This document shows, piece after piece, positions 55,225 to 57,532 of a stretch of DNA of 64,000 nucleotides. Each line of letters starts with the position of its first letter. Position 1 is the first letter of the stretch. The DNA is taken from contig NZ_FMHT01000003.1 in the NCBI RefSeq assembly GCF_900091585.1, forward strand, positions 1,364,001-1,428,000. The letters run 5' to 3'. Origin of the DNA: Micromonospora nigra (GTDB taxonomy: Bacteria; Actinomycetota; Actinomycetes; Mycobacteriales; Micromonosporaceae). The notes beneath the pieces were generated by a model. It saw only the letters and a program-made list of their open reading frames with translations, was not told the origin of the DNA and did no database searches. The translations under genes were made by a program, and so were the position numbers.

Positions 55225-56418
55225 ATGGGTGAGGATCGGGCATACGACGTCGTGTTGTTCGGGGCCACCGGGTTCACCGGCGGGCTGACCGCCGAATACC
55301 TGGCCCGGCACGCGCCGGCCGGGCTGCGCTGGGCGCTGGCCGGGCGCAACCCGGCCAAGCTGGCCGCGGTACGGGACCGGCTGGCCGCGATCGACCCGGG
55401 GCTCGCCGGGCTGCCGCTGCTGACCGCCGATGTGACCGACGCCGACGCGCTGCGGGCGGTGGCGGAGAGCACCCGGGTGCTGGCCACCACCGTCGGGCCG
55501 TACGTGCACCACGGGGAACCGCTGGTCGCGGCGTGTGCCCGCGCCGGCACCGACTACCTCGACATCACCGGCGAGCCGGAGTTCGTCGACCTGATGTACG
55601 TCCGCCACCACGCCGAGGCCGTCCGCACCGGGGCCCGCCTGGTGCACGCCTGCGGCTTCGACTCGGTCCCGCACGACCTGGGCGTCTGGTACACGCTCAA
55701 GCAGTTGCCCGCCGACGTGCCGATCGCCGTCGACGGGTTCGTCCGGGCCGGTGGCGCGTTCTCCGCCGGCACGTACCATTCGGCGCTGACCGCCTTCTCC
55801 CGCACGGCGCAGACGTCCCGCGCGGCGCGGGACCGCCGCGCGGTCGAGCCGCGACCGGACGACCGTCGCGTCCGCGCGGTGCCGGGGAAGCTGACCCGGT
55901 CGAGGGAACTGGGCGTCTGGACGGTGCCGCTGCCCACCATCGACCCGCAGGTCGTACGCCGGTCGGCCGCGGCCCGTCCCGAGTACGGGCCCGACTTCCG
56001 CTACCGGCACTTCGCGGCGGTGAAGCGGCTGCCGACGGTGCTGGCCGCCGGGGCGGGCCTGGGTGGCCTGGCCGCCCTGGTGAAGCTGCCACCGACCCGG
56101 CGCTGGCTGCTGGGGCGGCTCACCTCCGGGCAGGGGCCGAGCGCCGAGCGGCGCGCGAGGTCGTGGTTCCGGGTGCGGTTCGTCGGCACCGGCGGCGGCC
56201 GGCGGGTGGTGACGGAGGTGGCCGGCGGTGACCCCGGCTACGACGAGACGGCCAAGATGCTCGCCGAGTCGGCGCTCTGCCTCGCCCTGGACGACCTACC
56301 CGCGACCTCCGGCCAGGTGACACCGGTGACCGCGATGGGTGACGCCCTGCTGGAACGGCTCGTACGGGCGGGCCTGACGTTCCGGGTGCGGGAACAGACC
56401 ACCAGCGGAACGGCTTGA
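55225..56418 (+). CDS. Saccharopine dehydrogenase-like / trans-acting enoyl reductase family protein
   Basis: A 397-residue NAD(P)-binding protein. YDVVLFGATGFTGGLTAEYL is the Rossmann start; further blocks are LRWALAGRNPAKL, TTVGPYVHHGEPLVAACARAGTDY split around residue 95, and HACGFDSVPHDLGVW near 145. This is the layout of mycobacterial Rv2449c/Rv2953-type proteins, the latter an enoyl reductase acting with a polyketide synthase. No PKS is nearby, so the substrate is open. A hydrophobic stretch near 280-300 may touch the membrane. Start: ATG 55225, leaderless; frames reaching further upstream run into the 34-nt repeats. Confidence 0.88.
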   Translation: MGEDRAYDVVLFGATGFTGGLTAEYLARHAPAGLRWALAGRNPAKLAAVRDRLAAIDPGLAGLPLLTADVTDADALRAVAESTRVLATTVGPYVHHGEPLVAACARAGTDYLDITGEPEFVDLMYVRHHAEAVRTGARLVHACGFDSVPHDLGVWYTLKQLPADVPIAVDGFVRAGGAFSAGTYHSALTAFSRTAQTSRAARDRRAVEPRPDDRRVRAVPGKLTRSRELGVWTVPLPTIDPQVVRRSAAARPEYGPDFRYRHFAAVKRLPTVLAAGAGLGGLAALVKLPPTRRWLLGRLTSGQGPSAERRARSWFRVRFVGTGGGRRVVTEVAGGDPGYDETAKMLAESALCLALDDLPATSGQVTPVTAMGDALLERLVRAGLTFRVREQTTSGTA

Positions 56419-56439
56419 CCCTCCACCAGGTCGAGGTCA

Positions 56440-56445
56440 CAGGAT
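56440..56445 (+). promoter_or_regulatory. -10 hexamer of leaderless MerR/clamp transcript
   Basis: CAGGAT, then 7 nt (CAGCGGC), then GTG 56453. TTGACC at 56415-56420 could be the -35 (19-nt spacer). Confidence 0.5.
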
Positions 56446-56452
56446 CAGCGGC

Positions 56453-57532
56453 GTGGAGAGTGGACTGCGCAGCATCGGCGAGCTGGCCCGGGCCAGCGGG
56501 CTGACCGTGAGCGCCCTGCGGTTCTACGACCGCACGGGCGTCCTGGTCCCGGCCCTGGTCGACCCGGTCACCGGCTACCGCTGGTACGCCGACGACCAGG
56601 TGGCCCCGGCCCGGCTGGTGGCCGGCCTGCGCCGGGTCGGGATGCCGCTGGCCGAGATCACGGCGGCGGTGCGCCACCGCCGTGACCCGGCGGCGGTGAC
56701 CCGGCTGCTCGACAGGCACCTGCGCCGCCTCGAGGACGGCCTCGCCGATGCCCGCCGCGAACTCTCCCGGGTCCGTAGCCTGATCGATCCGGAGGAACCG
56801 ATGACCACCCGACTCACCCTGTCCCCCGCCGCGTTCGCCGCCGCCGTCGACGCCGTCCGGTTCGCCGTCGGCGACGATCCCGACCTGCCGGTGCTGGCCG
56901 GCGTGCTGTGCGAGGTGACCGACGACGGCCTGCGGCTGGTCGCCACCGACCGGCACCGGCTGGCGGTGGCCCGGGTGGCCGGCACGCCCGCCGGCCCACC
57001 GGTGCGGACGCTCGTTCCGGTCGCCCTGGTCGACGAGGTCCGCGGGCTGCTGGCGACGGCCGGTCCGCAGGCGCACCTGACGGTGTCCGCCTCGACGGTG
57101 GCGGTGTCCGTCGGTGAGCGGGAGGTGACGGCGGCCTGCCTGCCGTACGACTTCCCGGACTACCGCCGGCTGCTGCGCGACGCGGCCTCCGGAGCCCCGA
57201 CCCGCCGGGTCCGGGTGGAGGTGGCGGCGCTGCGGGAGTCGCTGACCGCCGGGCTGCCGCTGGTCAGGGAGCACGACGGGGTACGCCACGAGGTGACCGC
57301 CCTGGGCGTCGACGGCCGGGGCGGGTTGCGGGTGCTCGCCGCCGACGACCTCGCCGCCGACGACCCGGGCGTGCTGCGGGTCGGGGTGAACCGGGAGTAC
57401 CTGCTGGAGGCGTTGACGGCGGGCGGACGCGGCCAGTTGGTGCTGGAGCTGGACGGCCCGATCACCCCCCTCGCCGTCCGGCGCGAGGACGACGCCGACG
57501 CCTTCTCGATCCTGATGCCGATCCGCCTGTGA
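56453..57532 (+). CDS. MerR-type DNA-binding domain fused to beta-clamp (DnaN) domains II-III
   Basis: A 359-residue two-part protein. Residues 1-116 are a MerR HTH (IGELARASGLTVSALRFYDR, PVTGYRWYADDQV) with the dimerisation helix. From 117, TLSPAAFAAAVDAVRFAVGD through LRLVATDRHRLAVARV (near 165) is DnaN domain II. From about 240, the PYDFPDYRRLL and VNREYLLEAL blocks are domain III. The last residues, SILMPIRL, match the C-terminus of the replicative clamp that lines its client-binding pocket. Clamp domain I is absent and the MerR domain takes its place. An internal GGAGGA stands before an in-frame ATG at 56801. Role unknown: perhaps a regulator responding to replication or repair proteins. 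Confidence 0.88.
   Translation: MESGLRSIGELARASGLTVSALRFYDRTGVLVPALVDPVTGYRWYADDQVAPARLVAGLRRVGMPLAEITAAVRHRRDPAAVTRLLDRHLRRLEDGLADARRELSRVRSLIDPEEPMTTRLTLSPAAFAAAVDAVRFAVGDDPDLPVLAGVLCEVTDDGLRLVATDRHRLAVARVAGTPAGPPVRTLVPVALVDEVRGLLATAGPQAHLTVSASTVAVSVGEREVTAACLPYDFPDYRRLLRDAASGAPTRRVRVEVAALRESLTAGLPLVREHDGVRHEVTALGVDGRGGLRVLAADDLAADDPGVLRVGVNREYLLEALTAGGRGQLVLELDGPITPLAVRREDDADAFSILMPIRL
56791..56803 (+). promoter_or_regulatory. Internal ribosome-binding site and start in the MerR/clamp gene
   Basis: GGAGGA at 56791-56796, 4 nt, then ATG 56801, in frame and exactly at the domain border. Initiation here would give a 243-residue stand-alone clamp II-III protein. Confidence 0.6.

Follow-up and report, generated by a model that had tools for sequence, protein, structure and literature searches.

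Why would an actinobacterium join the DNA-binding half of a MerR regulator to domains II and III of a sliding clamp? The question is raised by one gene in a 64,000-nucleotide stretch of Micromonospora nigra DNA (contig NZ_FMHT01000003.1, positions 1,364,001 to 1,428,000; the window), which a preliminary description had read as a MerR helix–turn–helix (HTH) fused in frame to DnaN-like domains II and III. Profile searches and a structure model confirmed that architecture, and the fusion is real. The answer we favour, which we hold to be about evenly balanced between right and wrong, is a ligand-responsive MerR regulator that would have captured clamp domains II–III as its effector, in a layout like that of TipA, and would respond to a ligand of the DnaN pocket. 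Three elements are new in this analysis: a MerR-type promoter-operator before all 129 genes read from clade A, one of two clades of the fusion; an internal ribosome-binding site and start codon at the junction of the two halves, predicting a free domain II–III product; and, in Micromonospora, further copies of that operator, lying between dnaA and dnaN and before major facilitator superfamily (MFS) or TPR-like genes. The gene and its two halves are as follows.

56453..57532, + strand: MerR–clamp fusion gene, 359 amino acids, GTG start, stop codon included.
56453..56800, + strand: MerR half, with the HTH at residues 7–72 and a long helix at 79–111, extending to residue 116 (Pfam and structure model).
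56801..57532, + strand: clamp domains II–III, residues 117–359 (fold by profiles and structure model).

The MerR half (approximately residues 1–111) is continuous with the clamp domains (117–359) in the profiles and in a confident structure model. The Pfam scan identified the N-terminal HTH through MerR_1 (49.3 bits, cut-off 21.6) and MerR (45 bits, cut-off 28.2); in the model it is followed by the long helix of residues 79–111, present where a MerR-type dimerization helix is expected. The C-terminal half is made up of PF02767-type clamp domains in the same scan and is confidently modelled with a clamp fold, in keeping with what the preliminary description had proposed. Only domains II and III align to DnaN; domain I is absent, and the fusion scores below the dnaN profile cut-off. 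A sequencing error joining two separate genes, a caveat of that description, does not account for a fusion found in most Micromonospora genomes, and an assembly or frameshift artefact is ruled out by homologous fusions across many genomes.

What the clamp half has kept was determined from an alignment of 61 fusions, Escherichia coli DnaN, the DnaN of M. nigra itself and 16 usable actinobacterial DnaNs (positions 128–366 used), with a client pocket of 18 residues taken from PMC11139829. The window protein shares 12 of the 18 pocket residues with E. coli, though its domains II–III are only 25% identical, and the M. nigra DnaN shares 9 of 18 at 24% identity. In the 44 rows of clade A the mean pocket entropy is 0.46, against 1.37 elsewhere, and none of 100000 random draws was as low, also when compared with hydrophobic and glycine positions, so that the possibility that homologues do not conserve the pocket, left open by the preliminary description, is removed for this clade. 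Griselimycins and mycoplanecins occupy the pocket of DnaN, with Met362 of the E. coli protein moving and Arg365 forming bonds, according to PMC10817943; the equivalents of both residues are kept in the window protein. E. coli positions 299–306, the acidic strand of the dimer interface, are gapped in 98% of the 44 clade A rows, and the window protein is without L273 and E304 of the ring-closing face. DNA-facing basic residues are mostly lost and their conservation is not above average. From the gapped strand and the low-entropy pocket of clade A we conclude that the clamp half gave up closing a ring and that selection continued to act on its pocket. An extra replication clamp is ruled out as a reading of the gene, with domain I absent and the ring strand gone.

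How the gene is controlled is suggested by the DNA directly upstream.

56415..56445, + strand: predicted MerR-type promoter-operator, −35 TTGACC, 19-bp spacer, −10 CAGGAT.

The 19-bp spacer holds an imperfect dyad, CTCCAC..GTCGAG, and the GTG start lies 7 nt past the −10 element; the transcript is probably leaderless. TTGAC at −35, the dyad, and the fixed A and T of the −10 element were found in 129/129 distinct readable clade A upstream regions, all of which thus carry, at the sequence level, the MerR arrangement of an operator dyad in a 19–20 bp promoter spacer. With the pattern reversed, there were 0 matches in 160 Micromonospora genomes and 2 in 199 Streptomyces genomes. The site is present just 5′ of the fusion gene in 48 of the 49 gene-bearing Streptomyces genomes, G730 being the exception. 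Five clade B loci have a variant operator, TTGACCTTC..(A/G)AYGATGG, and the clade B site occurs in 53 of 78 Nocardia genomes, singly in 48 of these, its position 5′ of the clade B gene having been checked for G050 and G235 only. Further sites in Streptomyces, with the pattern TTGA(G/C)TCTC.., look different, resemble the operator of another MerR protein and were set aside. The earlier proposal of a transcription factor sensing clamp-client peptides gains from the conserved clade A pocket and from this operator at the gene's own promoter, as far as a predicted sensor. That operator specificity calls for caution is shown by two loci (L355 and L357), where another MerR gene has a self-operator, TTGACTCTC..GGCTTGAGACG, that resembles this one without being identical to it.

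A second set of signals lies at the junction of the two halves.

56791..56796, + strand: Shine–Dalgarno-like GGAGGA, followed after 4 nt by an in-frame ATG.
56801..57532, + strand: separate short product comprising domains II–III, predicted from start signals at the internal ATG (56801–56803).

Internal start signals are present in 42/42 Streptomycetaceae rows, in all 42 of which the start is ATG, and in 44/71 Micromonospora rows. The arginine preceding the glutamate at the junction is encoded by AGG in 37/40 Streptomycetaceae rows, against 43/1687 arginine codons (2.5%) elsewhere in the same genes, a comparison that excludes L008 and L111 and whose binomial value overstates certainty, as the rows share ancestry. 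Two further rows have lysine (AAG) and glutamine (CAG) in place of the arginine, with AGGAG preserved; because these amino-acid changes preserve the Shine–Dalgarno bases, they argue for DNA-level selection on the junction in Streptomycetaceae. In both Streptomycetaceae and Micromonospora the strongest departure in codon choice of the whole gene is the 7-codon window just 5′ of the internal start, with the 5′ end of the gene nearly as deviant in Micromonospora (8.2 vs 9.3). The mRNA from −27 to +21 is less folded than synonymous recodings in 37/42 Streptomycetaceae and 43/44 Micromonospora rows (mean z +1.14 and +1.59, respectively; control places −1.03 to +0.22). A free domain II–III product is predicted from the internal start. 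The leucine codon CTA just 5′ of that start occurs in 33/41 Streptomycetaceae rows and in 9/1973 elsewhere; rare CGA (arginine) and CTA (leucine) are kept in codon columns 112–118, upstream of the start, and could possibly mark an internal promoter, a hairpin or an unstructured leader.

The operator also recurs away from the fusion gene: 138 of 160 Micromonospora genomes hold at least two sites, and 7 hold none. These extra sites are assigned by likeness, and the one at dnaN by co-occurrence as well. Of 20 hand-chosen non-self sites, 11 lie between dnaA and dnaN and are directed at dnaN, 7 are followed 7–8 nt later by an MFS-like gene with an ATG start (one checked by Pfam) and 2 precede a TPR-like gene. 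The dnaA–dnaN sites have TTGTCCAC, which we take to be a DnaA-box-like sequence, within 44 nt downstream. M. nigra has exactly two sites at up to two mismatches, the self site (zero mismatches) and C3:3002179-3002209; at three mismatches there are three more, compared with two in the reversed control. Regions upstream of dnaN were fetched for 60 of the 160 Micromonospora genomes. The site, at up to three mismatches, is present in 51 of the 52 examined with a strong regulator match, always 658–674 nt 5′ of dnaN, and the exception (G468) has what seems to be a one-base-shorter version at the same place. Among the eight genomes without a strong match (none, or E 6e-26 to 3e-37), one has the site and seven have nothing better than 6–7 mismatches before dnaN; this contrast (51/52 vs 1/8) takes in all eight, G433 included, and probably reflects fewer events than genomes, those without the regulator probably belonging to few lineages. 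The suggestion in the preliminary description that the protein couples a promoter or locus to replication is strengthened by this location, to the extent of a predicted site, which could serve as one among several promoters of dnaN or exert its effect on oriC. The genome G433 (590 contigs; L397, G433:C183:8701-9861) has an operator before dnaN with one mismatch and no regulator protein found, which may reflect a gap in the assembly or else recent loss of the regulator.

In related genera, 20 of many sites were fetched, with most of their genes identified from similarity and one YunG gene from Pfam: 10 are self sites, 4 precede TPR-like genes, 3 YunG-like genes, 1 an MFS-like gene and 2 another MerR gene, and none of these 20 chosen sites is at dnaN. 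One TPR-like target looks, by eye, common to Micromonospora and a related genus, and a small TPR-like gene lies 3′ of the operator in both (L276, L277, L338 and L341), accompanied at L276 and L277 by a mycothiol maleylpyruvate isomerase-like (MDMPI_N) gene. At L343, L347 and L348, in a genus related to Micromonospora, a YunG-like gene starts at most 7 nt past an operator-like site.

The closest parallel to this arrangement is TipA of Streptomyces lividans. The tipA gene, with its two start codons, encodes both TipAL and TipAS and is a minimal autoregulated multidrug system (PMC7762955). The fusion, known from its sequence, likewise has a MerR half with a coiled-coil helix and a C-terminal effector, and full-length and effector-only starts with an autoregulated promoter are predicted for it. 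It differs in its effector, which consists of PF02767-type clamp domains where TipA has the TipAS domain (PF07739), absent from the Pfam scan of the fusion protein, and in the occurrence of its operator at dnaA–dnaN in Micromonospora. BmrR/Mta-like MerR regulators share the C-terminal effector layout, with a different effector domain, and include the closest solved structure to the MerR half, the multidrug-efflux transporter 1 regulator (E 1.2e-11).

On the TipA model, we infer DNA binding, production of two isoforms, the direction of regulation and the ligand as follows. The autoregulated promoter, with its dyad in the 19-bp spacer directly before the gene, would be bound by the dimer, which would sit on its other operators as well; a compound in the clamp pocket would alter the dimer and switch these promoters on. 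One gene would give two proteins, the full-length regulator and, from the internal start, the free effector domain; more of both would be made, and the free half could bind the compound and could not close a ring. In Micromonospora more DnaN would follow, as would an MFS exporter in certain genomes. Resistance to a pocket compound would call for such a regulon, made up of the regulator itself, the free pocket, dnaN and, in those genomes, the exporter. The most likely ligands would be DnaN-pocket peptides of the griselimycin and mycoplanecin kind, from Streptomyces and Actinoplanes. The predicted operator before both its own gene and the true clamp gene suggests a built-in sensor for clamp-binding drugs or proteins, and the operator, internal start and TipA-like layout shift the balance towards a drug sensor that mimics the target. 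GriR and MypR, second DnaN genes inside the griselimycin and mycoplanecin biosynthetic clusters (PMC10817943), resemble the fusion as second clamp-related proteins linked in thought to actinobacterial antibiotics of the DnaN pocket; the fusion differs in being without domain I and in having no constant gene cluster around it (29 loci, by eye). With DnaN itself the fusion shares the fold and client pocket of domains II–III, and differs in the absent domain I, the deleted ring-closing strand and the mostly lost basic residues that face DNA.

Several observations weigh against a drug sensor of this design. In the 17 rows of clade B conservation of the pocket is not clear-cut (entropy equally low in 8048 of 100000 draws, and in 2% of draws with an earlier list of 20 residues). 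Internal start signals are absent in 27/71 Micromonospora rows and not evident in five clade B loci. By Shine–Dalgarno duplex energy, none of 38 Streptomycetaceae junction sites ranks within the top 5% when set against other in-frame starts, in an analysis whose group ‘B’ (10 rows) also contained clade A rows misplaced by a C-terminus filter. Exact Shine–Dalgarno matches of at least 5 bases occur at the junction in 59/124 clade A rows and at some other in-frame start in 101/124, in a scan that misses the Streptomyces form AGGGAG. As neither measure is discriminating, the evidence for the internal start comes from the choice of codons, from amino-acid changes that compensate, and from folding. 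The second site of M. nigra is about 670 nt before dnaN, no MFS-gene site was found in that genome, the self site was the sole one seen in gene-bearing Streptomyces genomes, and 29 loci of other genera, read by eye, have no constant biosynthetic or efflux neighbours.

The strongest competitor, possible if on balance doubtful, is a sensor of the cell's own replication, in which the pocket would bind the clamp-binding motifs of endogenous polymerases, clamp loader and repair factors, gauge free client and then set dnaN supply or transcription through oriC. Because of the position of the operator at oriC, fixed between dnaA and the oriC DnaA boxes in 51/52 Micromonospora genomes examined, such a signal would fit Micromonospora nearly as well as drug sensing; the intact pocket and the near-universal, single-copy-like presence of the gene in that genus agree with it. 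It fares less well in Streptomyces, where the gene is in only 49/199 genomes and accompanied by its self site alone, and in the related genera, whose chosen sites are elsewhere than dnaN, and the MFS genes among the targets point to compounds. A broader scheme, which we regard as unlikely, would have a transcription factor that reads pocket occupancy, by clients or drugs, control a promoter bordering oriC and so close a direct feedback loop from clamp to origin, with the free clamp half from the same gene as decoy; if true, the condition of the replication clamp would govern both the supply of dnaN and transcription through the origin.

Less probable again is an ordinary MerR sensor that would simply have recruited the clamp fold and kept its pocket for a small molecule with no relation to replication, the dnaN and MFS sites belonging to its own regulon or to other MerR paralogues. 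The self-operators of other MerR genes (L355 and L357), the YunG- and TPR-like genes among sites in related genera and the altered clade B pocket would suit it; the retention of the very residues used by clamp clients, and a dnaN site that goes with the presence of the regulator, would not. A protein that imitates a clamp on DNA, drawing clamp clients to oriC or to its own gene, and is not mainly a transcription regulator, as an operator at the oriC edge and an intact pocket might suggest, is highly improbable given the promoter geometry at self and MFS genes (−35, 19 bp, −10, start codon 7–8 nt on) and the lone self site in Streptomyces.

If the drug-sensor reading is true, the pocket of an essential drug target has been copied into a regulator, which then detects any agent that acts on the target. 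This would be a general way of building drug sensors and a ready reporter for DnaN inhibitors, would help to explain actinobacterial life among DnaN-directed peptides, and in Micromonospora would connect a clamp-pocket sensor, in a way open to experiment, with transcription at dnaN and oriC.

The fusion is evidently, from its distribution, an old actinobacterial family. Three protein searches gave 2777, 2525 and 866 matches, with 8000 candidates scored and the best 120 listed in each; MerR and central clamp domains occur in 120, 120 and 118 of these best 120, and two listed proteins, P0283 and P0284, are without the MerR part. Public databases already list the architecture, under two names that have nothing in common, ‘MerR family transcriptional regulator’ and ‘DNA polymerase III subunit beta (family protein)’; if the predicted function is right, proteins filed under the latter can be regulators. 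No paper describing a MerR–clamp protein was found in open-access text, as judged by title, start of abstract and term counts. The fusion is present in 156/160 Micromonospora genomes at E 1e-20 (152/160 at E 1e-50 or better), in the 49 Streptomyces genomes at E 1e-60, and, as a match over both halves, in 11/396 genomes across the phylum, M. nigra counted. Clade A comprises Micromonosporaceae, Streptomycetaceae and Blastococcus, with a C-terminus that is mostly MPxRL, and clade B Nocardia, Streptomyces, Saccharothrix, Amycolatopsis, Prauserella and Rhodococcus; each forms one group, and the long branches are compatible with either one fusion event or two.

In Micromonospora the neighbouring genes, named from their sequences, are a saccharopine dehydrogenase-like gene and serS, with clusters common to 30/80 and 47/80 loci. 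The neighbours in other genera are quite different (29 loci, by eye), which rules out a regulator of a fixed neighbouring gene. Partial fusion matches with a self-operator nearby occur in G598, G612, G621 and G624, as longer linkers or broken copies, and a second full-length DnaN-like match stands beside the main one in 4 of 119 sampled genomes (G023, G107, G118 and G042).
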